Positions 3,341-11,915 of a DNA stretch of 38,600 nt are shown in pieces. How positions within the stretch are numbered: the first letter of the stretch is position 1; each line of letters starts with the position of its first letter. Origin of the DNA: Chloroflexota bacterium (GTDB lineage: Bacteria > Chloroflexota > Dehalococcoidia > Lucifugimonadales > UBA3495); NCBI GenBank assembly GCA_022566155.1, contig JADFJS010000002.1, positions 1 to 38,600 of the forward strand. The letters run 5' to 3'. The translations under genes were made by a program, and so were the position numbers. The notes beneath the pieces were generated by a model. It was given only the letters and a program-made list of their open reading frames with translations, had not been told where the DNA came from and did not search any database.

Positions 3341-3407
3341 GGAACGGCGAGCCGCGGATGAGTGGGCCAGGGCAGAAGGCTTCCACATCCGCCGACAACG
3401 CCGTTCC
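3341..3407 (+). ncRNA. Two-tiered perfect stem in the archaellin leader
   Basis: The outer stem GGAACGGCG (3341-3349) pairs exactly with CGCCGTTCC (3399-3407). The inner stem GCGGATG (3354-3360) pairs exactly with CATCCGC (3386-3392). Between them is an internal loop, AGCC on one side and CGACAA on the other, and the apical loop is 25 nt. This lies 53 nt before the archaellin start codon. Sixteen exact pairs around defined internal loops are unlikely by chance and resemble a ligand- or protein-binding RNA, but I do not recognise the class. Confidence 0.5.
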
Positions 3408-3417
3408 TAGCGGTTCA

Positions 3418-3427
3418 CACATATGTG
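3418..3427. promoter_or_regulatory. CACATATGTG palindrome upstream of archaellin gene
   Basis: A perfect 10-bp palindrome lying 32 bp before the archaellin ATG. It could be an operator for a dimeric regulator or a chance sequence. No clear promoter could be fixed in this region. Confidence 0.25.
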
Positions 3428-3459
3428 GGCAAATCTTAATTTCGAGAGGAGAGTTGACC

Positions 3460-4089
3460 ATGACCAGTATAAGGGGCAATTTTTTGCAGAGGCTACGGTC
3501 GCTGTTGCCCAGCCAACGAGGCATCACCGGACTTGAAACCGCCATCGTCTTGATCGCCTTCGTGGTGGTCTCGTCGGTGTTCGCCTTCGCGGCCCTGTCC
3601 ACCGGCCTGTTCTCCGCCGATAAAGCCAAAGACACCATTCAGGCAGGGCTTGCAGAGACCAGGGGCAGCATGGAGCTCAAAGGCTCTGTGGTGCTCACAT
3701 CGACCGTCGGCACCACCGGGGTTGTGTCCAACATCGCCTTCCAAGTGTCCAACGCCGCGGGCGGCGAGGCCATCGACCTGACCCCTGGCAAAACTATCAT
3801 CAAGTACAACGATGAAACCCAGTCGAGGATCTTCGACGCCGACAGTGGCTTTACCGTCACCCCAATCGGTAGTGCCGACAGCGACAAACTGCTTGAGCTA
3901 AAGGAGATCTACCAGATCGACATTATTAACCTTCATATCACCGGCGACAGTACCAGCAAGAATAATTTGTTGAACACGCTGGGTACCAACACGACCTTCA
4001 GCTTGGAAATAATTCCACCTAGGGGCGCAGTGCTCTTCATCGAACGCACCACGCCCGTTTACATGGACATCAGTACTTCGCTTGACTAA
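3460..4089 (+). CDS. arlB: Archaellin (archaellum filament subunit, FlaB/ArlB-like)
   Basis: 209 residues from ATG 3460, chosen for its strong ribosome site (GAGAGGAGA, 3444-3452); the ORF track start at 3358 is too early. The N-terminus is a class III signal peptide: a basic leader ending PSQRG, then ITGLETAIVLIAFVVVSS, with the conserved Glu at position 5 of the mature protein. This is the archaellin pattern, close to euryarchaeal FlaB, rather than the FTLIE pattern of type IV pilins. The rest is beta-rich with one N-x-T sequon (NTT), as expected for an archaellin outer domain. It is the only archaellin in the window and heads the operon for the ArlCDE, F/G, H, I and J proteins. A PibD/PilD-type peptidase must process it; none is encoded here. 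Confidence 0.92.
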   Translation: MTSIRGNFLQRLRSLLPSQRGITGLETAIVLIAFVVVSSVFAFAALSTGLFSADKAKDTIQAGLAETRGSMELKGSVVLTSTVGTTGVVSNIAFQVSNAAGGEAIDLTPGKTIIKYNDETQSRIFDADSGFTVTPIGSADSDKLLELKEIYQIDIINLHITGDSTSKNNLLNTLGTNTTFSLEIIPPRGAVLFIERTTPVYMDISTSLD

Positions 4090-4280: not shown

Positions 4281-6065
4281 ATGGCGGATAAAGACACACG
4301 GGTAGACGCCCTGGAGGACGAGGTCAAGGTTCTCAAAGGCGAGGTCAGGCGGACGCTGGTGGACCTCCGGGCATTGCTGATGCGAGAGGACTCGCCCCTC
4401 AATGAAGGTTCGTTGGGACGCAGATCGACACCGATAGACTATGGCGCCGATGAAGGGCCTCCACAGGCACGAAAGGAAGTTACCGAGACGACAAAGGTGA
4501 TCGAGAACGAGCCGGCGGCGGCTGTACCGAGCGCCCCACAACCGGCTAATCCTGGTCAAGGAATCGGAAACGCCGCTCCACCATTTGCCGGTGTGGTCCC
4601 CGGTGGCATGTTTCCACCCCAAATGGGTCCTCAACCGGGGGCAGGTTGGCCCGGTCCTCAAGCAGTCCAAGCACCACCACCCCCAGCGCCAGCGCCAGCG
4701 CCAACACCACAAGCGTCGCCCGGCCTCGATGCGGCCATGGCCGAGCGAGAACGAAGGATGGTCGAACAGGAGCAAAGGATGGTGGAGCAGGAGCGGAGGA
4801 TCGCCGACCAGGAGCGGAAGATCGCCGACTCCGAGAGCGCCCGGGACCGCCGAGAACAGGACATCGCCAACGATGCAGTTAAACGGGAATCTCCCACTCC
4901 AGCCAGCCAGCCGGATTCCGTCGTGCCCGAAACAGTACGCACGTCTGTCGGAGGCAGGATGCAGGAAACGCCCACTCCAGCCAGCCAGCCGGATTCCAGC
5001 GTACCCGAAACAGTACGCACGCCTGACGAAGGCAGGATGCAAGAATCTACCCCTCCAGCCAACCAGCCGGACAGTGCATCCAAAACGGATCGCCCGCCCG
5101 AAGAAGTCAGGATGCAGGAAACACCGGCTCATGACAGGGAATCGGATCCTAGGCAGTCTGAGATGGAGCGCTCGTCCGTTGAAGTAGATCCGGAAATGAA
5201 CGGTATGGATCGGCCGGAGCCGCGGAAACGTCCTTCCGGCCGGATCCAAAACCAAGAACCCGAGGATGGTCAATCCGAGGAACCATCCCAGCCGAGACGG
5301 CTTGCCTCCCGTGGAGAACCCAGGCGTGAACCAGCGAACGACGATGTAGAGGTGGACTATGAGGATGGAGATCAGTTCGCCGGTAAGGATCAGATCGATG
5401 AACCCTATGATGACGAGTGGAACCAGCCGGACCGCGACATCTCATCTGGGCCCCGTCAAGAACAGCGGGGCCGGAAGCGAGTCTACTATGACGAAGACGC
5501 GGAGGCTGCCAGGCCTCGTTCCAGACTCCAGCATCAGGAGCAAGACTCGGCCGGCGCCTCTCAAGATTCTGATCGCCCTTCCCGCCGGCGGGTCAAGCCG
5601 GCGGAGTGGCGTCAACAGACCCAATCTGATAACGGACATGGTTACCATGAGAAATATGACGAGAATCAGAATATTAAACGCAACGGTACCGGCAGCCGGG
5701 TCTATGAAGAGTACTTTCAGCTCTTGTCTGAGACTGAGGAAAGCTACGAAGATAGCGGCGAAGCCTCCCCATCGGCGCCCATGGACATCAACCTGGTAGC
5801 CAGTTTGGTGCGCTGGGCATCGATCGCCAAACAAAGGGTGGGAGAGGACCGGTTATACGACATCCTGGAACTATACCTGCAATCGGGGCATGCTACCCCG
5901 GGGCTGCGCGAACTGCTAACACAAACCTCTGGGATGGCCGATGCTATGCCCCCTGAAACCAATCAAACCGCCCAAGAGTGTGTGGACCTGATATCCCACC
6001 TCCACGGCATACTCACCGGTTCCCTGGCCATCGCCAGAGTCCCACAGTTAAAGTTGCCGGCCTAG
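4281..6065 (+). CDS. ArlC-ArlD/E-like archaellum scaffold protein with long disordered linker
   Basis: 594 residues. Residues ~1-40 are a coiled coil with VRRTLVDLRALLMREDSPL, like archaeal FlaC proteins (coiled coil then a DLREL..NP motif). Residues ~501-550 match the FlaD/FlaE domain: LVRWASIAKQRVGEDRLYDI, then LELYLQSGHATPGLRELL. Between them lies a long low-complexity region: Pro/Ala-rich, then heptad-like Glu/Arg repeats (RRMVEQEQ, RRIADQER), then a 26-residue repeat in three copies, then a charged Asp/Glu/Arg stretch. In euryarchaea ArlC/D/E form the cytoplasmic ring around ArlH and link the motor to chemotaxis, which suggests the same role here. Archaeal versions are about 150-400 residues, so the linker is exceptional. 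The C-terminal domain decides the call. Confidence 0.75.
   Translation: MADKDTRVDALEDEVKVLKGEVRRTLVDLRALLMREDSPLNEGSLGRRSTPIDYGADEGPPQARKEVTETTKVIENEPAAAVPSAPQPANPGQGIGNAAPPFAGVVPGGMFPPQMGPQPGAGWPGPQAVQAPPPPAPAPAPTPQASPGLDAAMAERERRMVEQEQRMVEQERRIADQERKIADSESARDRREQDIANDAVKRESPTPASQPDSVVPETVRTSVGGRMQETPTPASQPDSSVPETVRTPDEGRMQESTPPANQPDSASKTDRPPEEVRMQETPAHDRESDPRQSEMERSSVEVDPEMNGMDRPEPRKRPSGRIQNQEPEDGQSEEPSQPRRLASRGEPRREPANDDVEVDYEDGDQFAGKDQIDEPYDDEWNQPDRDISSGPRQEQRGRKRVYYDEDAEAARPRSRLQHQEQDSAGASQDSDRPSRRRVKPAEWRQQTQSDNGHGYHEKYDENQNIKRNGTGSRVYEEYFQLLSETEESYEDSGEASPSAPMDINLVASLVRWASIAKQRVGEDRLYDILELYLQSGHATPGLRELLTQTSGMADAMPPETNQTAQECVDLISHLHGILTGSLAIARVPQLKLPA
4893..5126 (+). repeat. Three-copy 78-bp in-frame tandem repeat within the ArlCDE-like gene
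   Basis: Copies start at 4893, 4971 and 5049. The first two encode 26 residues each (PTPASQPDS..VPETVRT..GRMQE) and are nearly identical. The third is one codon shorter and more diverged. This looks like recent tandem duplication inside the disordered linker and would let the linker length vary between strains. Confidence 0.85.
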
Positions 6066-6122: not shown

Positions 6123-6566
6123 ATGTTCCTGATTGCCAGCGTAATCGCCGCGCTGGCCCTGACCAACGCGGTGCTGCCCGCAATGGGGAAAAGCGCCAGC
6201 GCCCTGGTTTCCGCCAATAAATCTGCCGCCGAGCGCATCAAGACCGATATTGCCATTGTTCACGCCACCGGAGACGCGGCCAATGACCAAGTCACCGTCT
6301 GGGTAAAGAATATTGGAACTCAATCAATCAAGCAAATCGACGCCAGCGACGTGTTTCTTACCACACCCAGCAGCGTGCTAAGACTGCCTTATGTAAGCAG
6401 TTGCGCCAGCGAGTGCTGGGATTATTCCATAGAAGGCGGCGGTGCCGCCTGGATCCAAGCGGTGACGGTCAAGTTTACTATAAAAACCAGCGTGGATACC
6501 GGCAATTACAATGTTTCCGTTGCCGTGGCCAACGCAGTTAGAGCCGACAAAGATTTCAGCGTCTAA
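6123..6566 (+). CDS. ArlG-like archaellum stator protein
   Basis: 147 residues from the first ATG. One hydrophobic helix at the very N-terminus (MFLIASVIAALALTNAVLP) is followed by a helix and then a beta-rich domain (VTVWVKNIGTQSIKQIDASD). This is the layout of archaeal FlaG/ArlG, which forms a pseudo-periplasmic filament capped by ArlF-ArlG contacts that bind the S-layer. The start is uncertain: the frame is open upstream to 6081, a GGAGA site lies at 6088-6092, and the residues between (IEKSISTA) resemble the short tail before the ArlG helix, so initiation at a rare ATC codon near 6099 is possible. Position between the ArlCDE-like protein and the second single-span protein supports the call. 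Which of the two is F and which is G is inferred. Confidence 0.65.
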   Translation: MFLIASVIAALALTNAVLPAMGKSASALVSANKSAAERIKTDIAIVHATGDAANDQVTVWVKNIGTQSIKQIDASDVFLTTPSSVLRLPYVSSCASECWDYSIEGGGAAWIQAVTVKFTIKTSVDTGNYNVSVAVANAVRADKDFSV

Positions 6567-6612: not shown

Positions 6613-7131
6613 GTGGGCATCGTATTAGCGGGGTTTGTGGTAATCACCACCTTCTTGATGACCTCGGTGTTGATGTTTAGCGCATTTTTGTCCGCTTCTG
6701 TATCCCAGGGGGAATCATTGAGGGTGATCACTCACGTTAGCAGCGAAAGACTGGGCAGCGCACTATCCATAACTAGTGCATCCGTTGTCACCCCGGCTGG
6801 GCCGGACGTGGCGGTGCAGGTGGATAACAGTGGCAGCCAATCGGTGGTCCGCTTTGGCGAATTGGACGTGATCATAAAATACACCGATTCGGACAACACC
6901 GCGGCCCTGCGATACCTGGCGTATACCTCGGGCGCACTCGGCAACAACCAGTGGACGATCGCCACCACCGGGGTGCAGCCCGATAACTTCAACCCGGGGA
7001 TGTGGGACCCCGGTGAGACCCTGCCGATAGACCTGCGGGTGTCCCCAGCCATCAAGGCCGGGACCGCCGCAGAGGTAGTGGTGGGAACCCCATGGGGAGT
7101 AAACGATAAGAGTTCGATCGTCAACCCGTGA
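6613..7131 (+). CDS. ArlF-like archaellum stator protein
   Basis: 172 residues from GTG 6613, with a GAGAAGAGG ribosome site about 8 nt upstream. The N-terminal helix (GIVLAGFVVITTFLMTSVLMF) is followed by a beta-sandwich-like extracellular region rich in Asn, Ser, Thr and Gly. In archaea ArlF is a single-span protein whose soluble domain binds the S-layer and anchors the motor. Size, topology and position before arlH fit. Sequence resemblance is weak, as is usual for this family, so the call rests on topology and context. Confidence 0.6.
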   Translation: MGIVLAGFVVITTFLMTSVLMFSAFLSASVSQGESLRVITHVSSERLGSALSITSASVVTPAGPDVAVQVDNSGSQSVVRFGELDVIIKYTDSDNTAALRYLAYTSGALGNNQWTIATTGVQPDNFNPGMWDPGETLPIDLRVSPAIKAGTAAEVVVGTPWGVNDKSSIVNP

Positions 7132-7210: not shown

Positions 7211-7933
7211 GTGACTACAGGCGCAATGGCGGATGCGGGAGGGATAATATCCACCGGAAGTAGCGAGATAGACAAGAAGCTGGGCGGCGGGATCCCTGTC
7301 GGGTCCCTGGTTCTGCTGGAGGGACAATCCGACTCCGGCAAGAGCGTCGTGTCTCAGCATTTCACCCATGGCTCATTGAACACTAGAATGTCGGCCGCCT
7401 ACTACACCACGGAAAACACGGTCAAGAGCCTGATGACCCAGATGGCCTCCCTTAACCTGGACGTCACCGATTACTTTCTGTGCGACCGATTGAGAGTTTA
7501 CCCCCTGGAGATGTCATCCACTAAGGAAAACGACACCAAGGAGGCGTTCCGGGTTCTTTTGGACCACTTCGACAGTTTACCCGTCAGGTTCAAACTGACG
7601 ATCGTGGACAGCCTTACCGGCCTGGTTTCCCACAGCGACGACCGGGCCATCATCGACTTCTTTGCCTCTTGTAAACAGCTCTGTGATCGAGGCCGCACGA
7701 TTATCGCCGTGGTCCACTCCTACGCCTTCGACGACCGCATGTTGATTCGTATACGTTCGCTGTGCGATGCACACCTGGTCCTGAAGGTGGACCAGGTGGG
7801 AGAGCGGTTGATCAAGATTATGGAGGTAGCGAAAGTTCGAAATGCCGACCAGTCCACGGGAAACATTATCAGCTTCGATGTGGAACCGGGTATGGGCATG
7901 AAAATCATCCCAATCTCAAAAGCTAAGGCTTAG
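7211..7933 (+). CDS. arlH: ArlH (FlaH) KaiC-like ATPase of the archaellum
   Basis: 240 residues, the usual ArlH length. The RecA/KaiC fold is marked by GSSEIDKKLGGGIPVGSLVL, Walker A GQSDSGKS (residues 38-45, close to the archaeal GPNDSGKS form) and Walker B LTIVDS with Asp133. There is no second KaiC domain. In archaea ArlH binds ATP, forms a hexameric ring inside the ArlCDE or ArlX ring and regulates ArlI. The gene follows the stator genes by 79 bp and precedes arlI by 3 bp, the same order as in many euryarchaeal operons. Confidence 0.9.
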   Translation: MTTGAMADAGGIISTGSSEIDKKLGGGIPVGSLVLLEGQSDSGKSVVSQHFTHGSLNTRMSAAYYTTENTVKSLMTQMASLNLDVTDYFLCDRLRVYPLEMSSTKENDTKEAFRVLLDHFDSLPVRFKLTIVDSLTGLVSHSDDRAIIDFFASCKQLCDRGRTIIAVVHSYAFDDRMLIRIRSLCDAHLVLKVDQVGERLIKIMEVAKVRNADQSTGNIISFDVEPGMGMKIIPISKAKA

Positions 7934-7936
7934 ATC

Positions 7937-9661
7937 ATGCCTGCAGGTGCTTTGCCATTCCCGGCCCAAAAAGGACACTCCCATAAGGGAGGAATCAAGA
8001 CTTGCCCGATGTTCAAGATGTTGCCGGCGGGTCTGCAAGAGGAGGCCAAGAAAAATGAGTTTTTACTGGACTACATCCACATGCTGCCGATGGACGAGGT
8101 GGGCATCCCGGAATATTACCCCGAACTGAATCGGGGCTTGGGGGATCTAAAAGACCCCAACCTTATCTATCCGGTGGGGGAACAAACCTACATTCACATC
8201 TTTGCCGACCAGACCGATAGCCGCGACTACTACATCGCCATCGAGCCCGGGATGACGCTGGATATGGACAGCCTGATGGAGGCCCTTGAAGACCGCCTGG
8301 TTGACTACGTAGACGAGCTGGACGACTTGGATGGCGCCCAAACGGACCGGGGGCAGGTGCTGCGGAACATCCTCGCCAAGGCCTGCATAGTTGTCGATGC
8401 CAAAGACCTCAAATCTCAACGGAAAAAGAACGAGAAGAAGGCCGCTGCCAGACTTCCGGTCAGCAAGGCCGAAATGGCTTCGCTACGGTACCAATTGATA
8501 CGCGACAAAGAAGGCATGGGCGTGATGGAGCCGTTGATCCTGGACCCTTACATCGAGGATATAAGCTGCAGCGGCCTGGGCTCATTGTTCCTGGAGCACA
8601 AGATCTTCAAGAGCCTGAAGACCAACATTTCATTCGGGTCCTTAGACGAGCTGGACACCTTTGTGATCCAACTGTCCGAAAAGATTGGGAAACCAGTCAC
8701 CTACCGAAACCCCATTGTAGACGCCGTTCTTCCCGACGGCTCCCGCATCAATCTCGTCTTCGGCGCCGACGTCTCCAAGCGGGGCAGCAATTTTACTATT
8801 CGAAAGTTCTCAGCCGAACCGTTGAGCATGATTGAGTTGGTGGAGTTCGGAGGGCTGACCTATGAAATGGCCGCCTACTTTTCTCTCGCCATGCTCCACG
8901 GCATGAACATGTTCATTGCCGGGGAAACGGCCTCGGGGAAAACCACGCTGATGAACGCCGTGACGGTATTTCTCCATCCAAATTCCAAGATTGTCAGCAT
9001 TGAGGACACACCCGAACTTCAGGTCCCTCATCCCAACTGGATCCGGGAGGTGATCAGGGGTAAGGCGGGAGACGACTCCTCTTCTTCGGTTACCATGTTT
9101 GACCTGCTGCGGGCGGCCCTAAGGCAGCGGCCCAACGAGATCATTATTGGCGAGATCCGAGGCGAGGAAGGGGCGATCGCATTCCAGGCGATGCAGACCG
9201 GCCATGCCTGCATGGCTACTTTCCACGCGGCTTCGGTCGAGAAGCTGATCCAACGCCTTACCGGCAGCCCCATCAACATTCCCAAGACTTATATCGACAA
9301 CCTCAACTTGGTGGTCATTCAGAGCTTGGTACGCCTGCCCAACGGCAAGGATGGCCGCCGGATCCTCAGCATAAATGAGATCGTAGGCTACGATTCGGCG
9401 ACAGATTCCTTCTCTTATATCGAAGTTTTTCACTGGAACCCTGTGGATGATTCCTACGAGTTTACCGGTTACATGAACAGCTACCTGCTGGAGGAGGTCA
9501 TCGCCTTCAAATTGGGTCTCCCTCCTCATCGAAAACGTGAAATCTACAAGGAGCTCAGCCGAAGGGCCACCATCCTGCGTAAGCTAAAAGATCAGGGAGT
9601 CACCGGGTTCTATGACCTCTTCAAAGTCATCTCGCAAGCGTCCCGCCAAGGTATCTTCTGA
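7937..9661 (+). CDS. arlI: ArlI (FlaI) archaellum motor and assembly ATPase
   Basis: 574 residues. It shows the secretion-ATPase signature: N-terminal domain with EYYPELNRGLGDL, Walker A GETASGKTT (near residue 330), an Asp box around IVSIEDTPELQ, Walker B IIIGEIRGEE (near 402) and a His box (TFHAASVEKLIQRL). The region DPYIEDISCSGLG is the archaeal GspE/FlaI form rather than bacterial PilB, and the Cys-rich zinc segment of PilB is absent. The hexamer powers both archaellin assembly and rotation. The start is open: ATG 7937 lies 3 nt after arlH; ATG 8009 has a strong AAGGGAGGAA site but a long spacing of about 14 nt. The 3' end overlaps arlJ by 50 bp. Confidence 0.95.
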   Translation: MPAGALPFPAQKGHSHKGGIKTCPMFKMLPAGLQEEAKKNEFLLDYIHMLPMDEVGIPEYYPELNRGLGDLKDPNLIYPVGEQTYIHIFADQTDSRDYYIAIEPGMTLDMDSLMEALEDRLVDYVDELDDLDGAQTDRGQVLRNILAKACIVVDAKDLKSQRKKNEKKAAARLPVSKAEMASLRYQLIRDKEGMGVMEPLILDPYIEDISCSGLGSLFLEHKIFKSLKTNISFGSLDELDTFVIQLSEKIGKPVTYRNPIVDAVLPDGSRINLVFGADVSKRGSNFTIRKFSAEPLSMIELVEFGGLTYEMAAYFSLAMLHGMNMFIAGETASGKTTLMNAVTVFLHPNSKIVSIEDTPELQVPHPNWIREVIRGKAGDDSSSSVTMFDLLRAALRQRPNEIIIGEIRGEEGAIAFQAMQTGHACMATFHAASVEKLIQRLTGSPINIPKTYIDNLNLVVIQSLVRLPNGKDGRRILSINEIVGYDSATDSFSYIEVFHWNPVDDSYEFTGYMNSYLLEEVIAFKLGLPPHRKREIYKELSRRATILRKLKDQGVTGFYDLFKVISQASRQGIF

Positions 9662-11099
9662 TAACGCCGCAATCAGCTTCGATCTGCTGTCCAACCTCAC
9701 GTACATGGCCGCGTTGGCCACCGGCGGATCGGACCGCGACACGATTCTGAAATGGGCGATCAAGCAAGATTTCAAGACGGGCACCTTTTTCCGCCGCGTC
9801 TACCTCCTCTCCAAGCGGCTAGGGTTCGAGTACACCCGGTCATTTCGCATGGTTGCCGCCAAAGCCGGCGCCTCATCGGTAAAAAACCTTTTACTGCGGT
9901 TCGCGGGCGCCATCTCCTCCGGTGTCTCCGAGGCTGACTTTCTGGCCGAAGAGGCGAGGGTCGAACGGGACCTGTACATAAACGCCTATTACCGCAGCCT
10001 CGAAACCCTGACGAAGTGGGGAGATGCCTACGCGGCCCTGCTGGTGTCGGTTTCCCTGATAGTAGTAGTCGCGATGATGTCCACCATGATCAGCAACCTG
10101 GGTGCCACTTTCGTGATTATGCTTACCTCGACCATGGTCATGGTGTCTGCCTTTGGCGTATATATCATCTATCGGACCGCGCCATACGAAATCAAGACAT
10201 ATCAAAACAACCGTGGACCAGTGGAGAGGGTTTGGGCCAAGCGTCTGTTTTACGCGCTGGTACCCGCGAGTATCTTGATTGGCATATTTCTCGGCTACAT
10301 TTACGGCTTCCACTATTTCCTCTTCTCCTTGGGGATTGCTCTTTTCCCTTCGGGCTTCATGGCCTGGATGGACAATGGCAAGGTTAACCAGCGAGACCAG
10401 GAAGCCGCGACCTTCGTGCGTTCCCTTGGCAATGTAACAGCCTCCCTGGGCACTACGCTAGGCGCCGCATTGATAAAGATAGACCGGCGCTACCTGGGCA
10501 GTCTGGAACCGTCTATCAGACGTCTGCAAGTACGTCTTAGCAGGGGAATCAACACCCAAAAGTGTTGGGACGCCTTCCGGGACGAGGTGGGCAGCGAGCT
10601 GATGAACCGGACTTCGCGCATGTTTGTCGACGGTGTCAGCCTGGGTGGACCTCCGGAAAAGGTGGGCGCCATCGCGGCGGAATACTCCCAGGACGCCGCA
10701 ACCATGCGGGCCCGCCGCATGGTGTCGGCCGCTCCATTCTCCTTTCTAGTGATTCCCCTCCACTTCGCCATGACCGGGTTGATGACCTTCGTCCTGGAGA
10801 TAATCAGAGCGTTCAATACACGAATAGAGATCGCCTCGGCAGAGCTGGCAGCGCAGTCGGGCGACGGGGCAATGGGCCTGTTGCCGGACTTGCCGATCTT
10901 CCAGACTCAGGATATGACCTTGATGTCTAACATCACCCTGGTCGCTCTGATATCCATGACCGTATCCAATGCCCTGGCGCCCAAATTCGCGTTGGGGGGG
11001 CATTCCCTGATCGTCGGCGTATTCGGCTCGATCACCTGCTTGATGACGGCTTTCAACATGGCGGTGATCCCCCCCATTGCCGCCCAGGTGATGCTATAG
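9612..11099 (+). CDS. arlJ: ArlJ (FlaJ) archaellum membrane platform protein
   Basis: 495 residues. A cytoplasmic N-terminal region is followed by two T2SSF-type domains, each with helical hairpins, separated by groups of membrane helices (SLIVVVAMMSTM, SFGVYIIY, ALVPASILIGIFLGYIYG and four or more near the C-terminus). This double-domain, many-helix layout is that of archaeal FlaJ/TadC rather than bacterial PilC, which is about 400 residues with three spans. ArlJ holds ArlI at the membrane and seats the filament. The reading frame begins inside the end of arlI, so the two are probably translationally coupled. Confidence 0.92.
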   Translation: MTSSKSSRKRPAKVSSDNAAISFDLLSNLTYMAALATGGSDRDTILKWAIKQDFKTGTFFRRVYLLSKRLGFEYTRSFRMVAAKAGASSVKNLLLRFAGAISSGVSEADFLAEEARVERDLYINAYYRSLETLTKWGDAYAALLVSVSLIVVVAMMSTMISNLGATFVIMLTSTMVMVSAFGVYIIYRTAPYEIKTYQNNRGPVERVWAKRLFYALVPASILIGIFLGYIYGFHYFLFSLGIALFPSGFMAWMDNGKVNQRDQEAATFVRSLGNVTASLGTTLGAALIKIDRRYLGSLEPSIRRLQVRLSRGINTQKCWDAFRDEVGSELMNRTSRMFVDGVSLGGPPEKVGAIAAEYSQDAATMRARRMVSAAPFSFLVIPLHFAMTGLMTFVLEIIRAFNTRIEIASAELAAQSGDGAMGLLPDLPIFQTQDMTLMSNITLVALISMTVSNALAPKFALGGHSLIVGVFGSITCLMTAFNMAVIPPIAAQVML

Positions 11100-11201: not shown

Positions 11202-11915
11202 ATGGGCCTACTGGGCAAGATTATCAAACGGCAGAGTGCCGAGGACGCGGAAGATCTTGACTTCGAAGAAGAATTAGTCGATTCCCTGGACATGCCTGAC
11301 GAGGAGAGTGGCTCCAGTACCGGAATCCTGGGTAAAGTCCTGAAGTGGCGCGGGAAGGGTGACTCGGAAGATGCGGACGAGGACGAGGAGCCGGACGAGA
11401 TAGAGGATACGGATGAGACGGAGGATGCGGACGAAACGGATTCTGATGAGTACCCCAGCAACGCCGACGCTGCCGGCACCGCGGAAGAGGACCCTCCTGT
11501 CCAGGTAGTACGGTTGGAAGGTATTCCAGATGTACACCCTGTCGGTGATTCAAATACCAACATGACGCCGGGGCGGGGACCCGGGGCTGCCGCGGGCGCC
11601 GGGGGATCCGCCGGGCCCAGCGCTGGGCAGGATCCCGCTGCGGATTCTTCCCTGGAAGACGGCAACAATGCTGCCGAATCGCCCATAGCTGAGGTGGATG
11701 ACGCCGAGGGGGATGACACTAAAGAAGGCGACTCCAAGCAAGGCGGCGCCAGCGTACCAGACCTCGGCATTTCTTTGGAAGATATATTTGGGGAGGAGGA
11801 GGAGGTAGACGAAGCCCTTCGAGACCTCGCCGACTTCGTGGAAGATGTCGCGGCCAAAGATTTGGCCAGCGACCTGCAAGAGTTCTTAGAAGAACTGGAA
11901 GCCAGGCAGAAATGA
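11202..11915 (+). CDS. Acidic low-complexity protein closing the archaellum operon
   Basis: 237 residues with GAAGGAG before the ATG. The N-terminus MGLLGKIIKR could form a short amphipathic helix. Residues ~15-90 are highly acidic and repetitive (DEDEEPDEIEDTDETED), the middle is Gly/Ala/Pro-rich and probably disordered, and the C-terminus (ISLEDIFGEEEEVDEALRDLADF onward) is a predicted helical segment that may be the functional part. I recognise no family. Same strand and 102 bp after arlJ, so it is likely in the operon; it may be a binding partner of the ArlCDE-like protein or a link to an unknown switch. This is inferred from position only. Confidence 0.7.
   Translation: MGLLGKIIKRQSAEDAEDLDFEEELVDSLDMPDEESGSSTGILGKVLKWRGKGDSEDADEDEEPDEIEDTDETEDADETDSDEYPSNADAAGTAEEDPPVQVVRLEGIPDVHPVGDSNTNMTPGRGPGAAAGAGGSAGPSAGQDPAADSSLEDGNNAAESPIAEVDDAEGDDTKEGDSKQGGASVPDLGISLEDIFGEEEEVDEALRDLADFVEDVAAKDLASDLQEFLEELEARQK

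Follow-up and report, generated by a model that had tools for sequence, protein, structure and literature searches.

Archaella occur in some bacteria, and the locus described here raises the question of how the motor of such a machine is held together. Within the 38,600-nucleotide stretch of DNA that we analysed (the window), the gene following arlB encodes a protein that looks like two archaeal motor proteins joined end to end. The original prediction took this protein for an ArlC coil and an ArlD/E domain fused through a 450-residue disordered linker, a layout not known from archaea. Few components of the archaellum motor are, to our knowledge, as poorly understood as ArlCDE. We refer to the product of the ORF at 4281-6065 (+ strand) as the window protein and to its long-linker relatives (seven members including the window protein) as the window clade. 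Our analysis makes it very probable that the window protein is a divergent ArlCDE, presumably the motor scaffold or switch, of a bacterial archaellum, and that its linker was expanded once in this clade.

The host is a bacterium (Chloroflexota), and the family-level relatives are Chloroflexi, SAR202 and Dehalococcoidia MAGs. Archaella with arlCDE homologues have already been described in Chloroflexota (PMC12488501; PMC10444878), and such homologues are present in most Chloroflexota archaellum loci (PMC12488501). The operon runs arlB-fused gene-G-F-H-I-J and its archaellum gene set is complete, so that the fused gene is encoded together with arlB, F/G, H, I and J (Table 1). We read the ORF beyond the acidic 237-aa ORF as glmS. 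Viral contigs scanned with the PDB FlaH sequence gave no match, nor did plasmids searched by tblastn with the C-domain. Near the arl operon of another locus lies a 669-aa ORF (L030:3759-5765) whose N-terminal part resembles ArlF (31% identity over 175 residues).

Table 1. Features of the archaellum operon and segments of the fused protein (positions in the window).
Feature	Position	Strand	Evidence
arlB archaellin; listed ORF, with the true start probably further downstream	3358..4089	+	Pfam Arch_flagellin 6.2e-23
ArlCDE archaellum protein of 594 aa, ArlC and ArlD/E types fused through a long linker	4281..6065	+	Single ORF; homologues in equivalent operon slot
N-terminal ArlC-like coiled coil, residues 1-50, DTRVDALEDEVKVLKGEVRRTLVDLRALLMREDSPLNE, AF2 helix 2-34	4281..4430	+	Window-clade HMM matches fused archaeal genes; hhalign 97.8%; AF2
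Pro/Ala-rich disordered segment, residues 51-148	4431..4724	+	AF2 pLDDT mostly 33-50
Central predicted helix, residues 149-202, MAEQERR-like heptad repeat	4725..4886	+	AF2 pLDDT 86-94; alignment; 21-bp tandem repeat
Tandem array, 3.1 copies of a 78-bp (26-residue) unit, residues about 203-280	4886..5120	+	Tandem Repeats Finder
Charged disordered segment, residues 281-472	5121..5696	+	AF2 pLDDT about 31-45
Short helix ahead of C-terminal domain, residues 473-490	5697..5750	+	AF2; alignment
C-terminal ArlD/E-type domain, four-helix bundle, residues 499-592	5775..6056	+	hhalign via intermediates 95%, E 2e-8; AF2 pLDDT 76.8, pTM 0.67
arlG-like minor archaellin	6123..6566	+	Pfam Arch_flagellin 3.8e-6; slot, synteny
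arlF-like minor archaellin	6613..7131	+	Pfam FlaF_Ig-like 1.1e-5; slot, synteny
arlH	7211..7933	+	Pfam KaiC/ATPase 1.3e-21; PDB 4yds FlaH 2.3e-35
arlI ATPase	7937..9661	+	Pfam T2SSE 3.2e-38
arlJ membrane platform	9612..11099	+	NCBIfam ArlJ 1.9e-112, under model's curated cut-off
Acidic 237-aa protein directly 3' of arlJ	11202..11915	+	Equivalent slot in archaeal and Chloroflexota loci; archaeal-only HMM 8e-4

To identify the C-terminal domain, which includes RVGEDRLYDILELY (residues 519-532), we compared it with archaeal ArlD/E at the level of profiles. The Pfam scan of the window protein gave no Arch_fla_DE (PF04659) match reaching the curated cut-off, its relatives match this family below threshold only (0.06 to 1e-3), and the NCBIfam scan returned no useful match. 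An HMM built from the C-terminal ends of the seven window-clade members only, searched against 5,533 ORFs, retrieved genes of ANME-1 in the same operon slot (L053, 4.7e-9; L050, 3.4e-7), the gene in other Chloroflexota arl loci, and Methanococcales ArlD at 4e-4 to 3.5e-3. The archaeal fused genes themselves fall just under the Arch_fla_DE cut-off (L064, 9.6e-4; L090, 1.3e-3): in a search of 14 whole genomes it was exceeded only in two genomes with classical ArlD/E, while most archaeal genomes with a fused gene held a single match at E<=1, in the profile range of the fused C-terminal end (4e-4 to 7e-4 in Archaeoglobi). Profile-profile alignment joined the window-clade domain to that of the archaeal fused genes (hhalign 96.5%, E 9e-10), and the combined fused domains to 133 classical ArlD/E sequences (95.4%, E 2e-8; reversed control 0.4%). 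Direct comparison of the window clade with classical ArlD/E is weak (56%, E 1e-4), and family membership therefore rests on the intermediates. AlphaFold2 models the domain as a four-helix bundle (Table 1); a PDB fold search with this model gave no match (best E 1.6, low TM), nor did a PDB sequence search with the window protein. These profile comparisons firmly support homology of the C-terminus to ArlD/E, as originally proposed. No second ArlD/E-like protein was found in the source genome, which is about 67% complete. Outside the archaellum operons of two other genomes, an ArlD/E-like domain is joined to an IS4/5-type DUF4096 transposase domain (L033:10570-12381 in G090 and L037:8629-10101 in G082, from two different families of one order), possibly as a domesticated transposase fusion.

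The N-terminal coil, which contains the DLRALL motif at residues 28-33, shows a similar pattern of evidence at lower strength. FlaC_arch (PF05377) was not found over its curated cut-off in the source genome or the window protein. An HMM from the N-terminal ends of the window clade only retrieved the same fused genes as the C-terminal one (L053, 3e-6; L050, 3.8e-6, among 5,533 ORFs), the archaeal ELNERINALEGEVKLIKTEIKKVLIDLREFMNNYENPFVN aligns almost continuously with DTRVDALEDEVKVLKGEVRRTLVDLRALLMREDSPLNE, and hhalign matched the window-clade coil to the archaeal fused coil at 97.8% (E 1e-12). Against classical FlaC, the combined fused coils reach 89% (E 2e-6; reversed control 46%, E 2e-4) and the archaeal fused coils 90% (E 1.5e-6), the latter alignment keeping the NPF motif in phase; the reversed controls of these comparisons span 38-46% (E 2e-4 to 4e-4). 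The window-clade coil taken by itself reaches 3% (E 0.013), too weak to serve as proof, and in the window protein the NPF motif is degraded to DSPL. Because coiled coils match each other easily, which inflates such scores, we call the support from this end moderate: the N-terminus appears to be the ArlC-like coil of fused archaeal ArlCDE proteins, and its link to classical FlaC is of moderate strength. Both ends, missed by direct Pfam and NCBIfam scans, were tied to the predicted domains by profile-profile comparison through intermediates, the C-terminus firmly and the N-terminus moderately, and divergent bacterial arlCDE genes that escape these models need such intermediate profiles. G090 encodes a 129-aa protein (L040:1219-1605) that has just the N-terminal coil, as a separate ArlC would.

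Is the fused frame genuine, and is its coil really that of ArlC? The ORF is open over 594 codons with zero internal stops. The source MAG is fragmented into 179 contigs and about 67% complete, so an error in sequencing or assembly might have made one ORF out of two genes. However, six related genomes, assembled independently, carry the fused gene intact in the same operon slot (490-908 aa, both ends in one frame); the ORF is therefore not a frameshift or an assembly fusion, the prediction of one polypeptide stands, and we reject the artefact as having practically negligible probability. The second doubt concerns the coil, which could be a generic oligomerising coil, non-homologous to ArlC, that arose in the fused lineage of ANME-1, Archaeoglobi and Chloroflexota and stands before an ArlD/E-like domain. 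The very low direct score of the window-clade coil against FlaC and the height of the reversed controls favour this reading, but the archaeal fused coils match FlaC in an alignment that brings the terminal NPF motifs together, and the order of coil, then DE domain is the same as in haloarchaeal ArlCE. We consider a generic coil unlikely, and retain the reading of the protein as a divergent ArlCDE.

Between these ends, which by HMM boundaries lie 445 residues apart, the predicted length and low complexity of the linker were borne out, but not its disorder throughout. When the whole protein was modelled by AlphaFold2 together with six relatives, confidence was low overall (mean pLDDT 46.9); the model has helices at 2-34, 149-202 (54 residues, pLDDT about 86-94), 473-490 and, in the C-domain, 503-580; the remainder is mostly below 50. 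Given the confident central helix, the linker consists of two disordered stretches flanking a helix rather than one 450-residue run. Tandem Repeats Finder recovered the predicted three-copy 26-residue repeat at 4886-5120 (residues about 203-280), where a 78-bp unit occurs 3.1 times with 81% matches, and a second repeat of 21-bp (heptad) units (3.6 copies, at 4755-4829). In the alignment, the heptad helix occupies an equivalent position in the window protein and four relatives (five of the seven clade members), as many as carry the VYxEYxxL motif that includes the helix at 473-490. The 21-bp repeat was detected at the matching position in three relatives, and repeat units vary by species (90 bp in L027; 36 and 42 bp in L032).

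This anatomy leads to a further question: Is the expanded linker under selection, or has it simply grown? If only the two ends matter, low-complexity sequence could have been added near-neutrally through replication slippage; this would account for the wide length range (339-730 residues), for repeats that are unlike between species, and for the fast divergence between genera, where the later linker (203-457) retains 22-27% identity vs 62-67% for the DE domain. In the closest pair (L026/L029), however, rough Nei-Gojobori estimates of dN/dS are about 0.08 for the DE domain, 0.13 for the Pro-rich part and 0.40 for the later linker: the linker is subject to purifying selection, relaxed in its later part, where dN/dS is still below 1. 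The retention of the central helix in five of seven members also speaks against neutrality, as does the fact that none of the clade members has a short linker in this operon. We regard near-neutral growth as quite possible, if a little short of probable. At the other extreme, the linker with its helix and repeats could function as a long-reach tether, or as a scaffold organising the pole, in place of the archaeal polar cap and CheF link; we judge this improbable. If it were true, a bacterial cell would hold and steer an imported archaellum motor by means of the linker.

What, then, might the protein do? The ArlCDE of Haloferax has ArlH and CheF as interaction partners and is believed to ring the motor (PMC8978795). 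By analogy, the window protein would act as a motor scaffold or switch in contact with ArlH: a cytosolic part surrounding or docking on the ArlH-ArlI motor, whose N-terminal coiled coil probably oligomerises and whose C-terminal four-helix domain probably binds a partner in the motor or at the pole, which in Haloferax is ArlH. The long linker would be an elastic spacer, partly made by tandem duplication and carrying the central helix, that was expanded once in the Chloroflexota clade; a single polypeptide might, as first suggested, both form the motor ring and tether it at a distance. A search of 11 Chloroflexota genomes for CheF, the partner known from archaea, gave no match, consistent with PMC12488501; CheF was found in one Archaeoglobi genome and one genome of the haloarchaeal phylum. 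Of nine clade genomes, CheA was found in only G014 and G026, whose linkers are long, but Chloroflexota with short linkers have it too, and we discarded a tie between linker length and chemotaxis as showing no clear link. With CheF not found in these 11 genomes and CheA found in two of nine, we therefore keep a scaffold or switch as the best inference, and the linker as a spacer or the result of near-neutral growth. Chloroflexota linkers of 28 to 730 residues in otherwise conserved operons form a natural length series, which allows the effect of the distance from coil to DE domain on assembly, polar placement or switching to be tested.

The slot directly 3' of arlJ is also shared. In nearly all loci (L026-L118), archaeal (ANME-1, Archaeoglobi) and Chloroflexota, it holds a small, mostly acidic protein with a hydrophobic/membrane-type or basic amphipathic N-terminus and a similar C-terminal helical motif of ~50 residues; none of the ten examined matched a Pfam family over cut-off. 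Searched against 5,533 ORFs, an HMM from the archaeal members alone found the window's counterpart (Table 1), and the archaeal profile aligns with that of Chloroflexota at 90% (E 1.7e-6). Judged from these profiles, the protein may be an unrecognised archaellum component.

It is instructive to ask whether the layout is as foreign to archaea as was supposed. The window protein unites the two conserved ends in a single chain, encoded in the slot that follows arlB, and so belongs to a fused subfamily of ANME-1, Archaeoglobi and Chloroflexota. Among the best 80 of 140 ArlH loci and relatives, 15 archaeal loci have a gene of this kind in that slot (linkers of 51-273 residues), as do 39 other Chloroflexota loci (28-224 residues); the linkers of the window clade span 339-730. 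In addition, 29 chains from the haloarchaeal phylum (Halobacteriota) join FlaC to Arch_fla_DE through acidic linkers of 122-286 residues, some with tandem repeats; we label them haloarchaeal ArlCE on the basis of sequence character and the literature. According to reviews, DE and CDE fusions are common (PMC4858521; PMC8978795). The claim of novelty is thus refuted. The fusion is ordinary; what is unusual is the length of the linker (339-730 in the window clade against 51-286 in the archaeal fusions measured), a lineage-specific quirk. In the ArlI tree the seven long-linker rows form one clade (support 100/100), which makes a single expansion the simplest history. One SAR202 genome (bin.363) has two archaellum loci with linkers of 35 and 730 residues (L063 and L089), and G005 has, besides its long-linker locus, a second archaellum locus whose ArlCDE-like protein carries two tandem DE-type domains (L038:9866-11146).

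Among known systems, the fused ArlCDE of ANME-1 (Methanophagales) and Archaeoglobi resembles the window protein in its slot between arlB and arlG/F, its N-terminal coil, its C-terminal domain and its single chain; it differs in a shorter linker (51-273 vs 445 residues) and in retaining the NPF motif. Haloarchaeal ArlCE has the same domain order and a long, acidic, disordered linker able to carry tandem repeats; it differs in linker length (122-286), in directly recognisable classical domains, in an extra N-terminal extension before FlaC, and in the presence of CheF in the Halobacteriota-phylum genome examined. ArlX has a transmembrane segment, and the Pfam scan of the window protein gave no match to its family (PF24151). 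In Crenarchaeota, ArlX is thought to have an analogous motor-ring role (PMC8978795). Litorilinea aerophila and Candidatus Lucifugimonas marina likewise have a bacterial archaellum with arlCDE homologues (PMC12488501; PMC10444878), and the other sampled Chloroflexota have linkers of 28-224 residues (159 in Lucifugimonas), in contrast to the 339-730 residues of the window clade.
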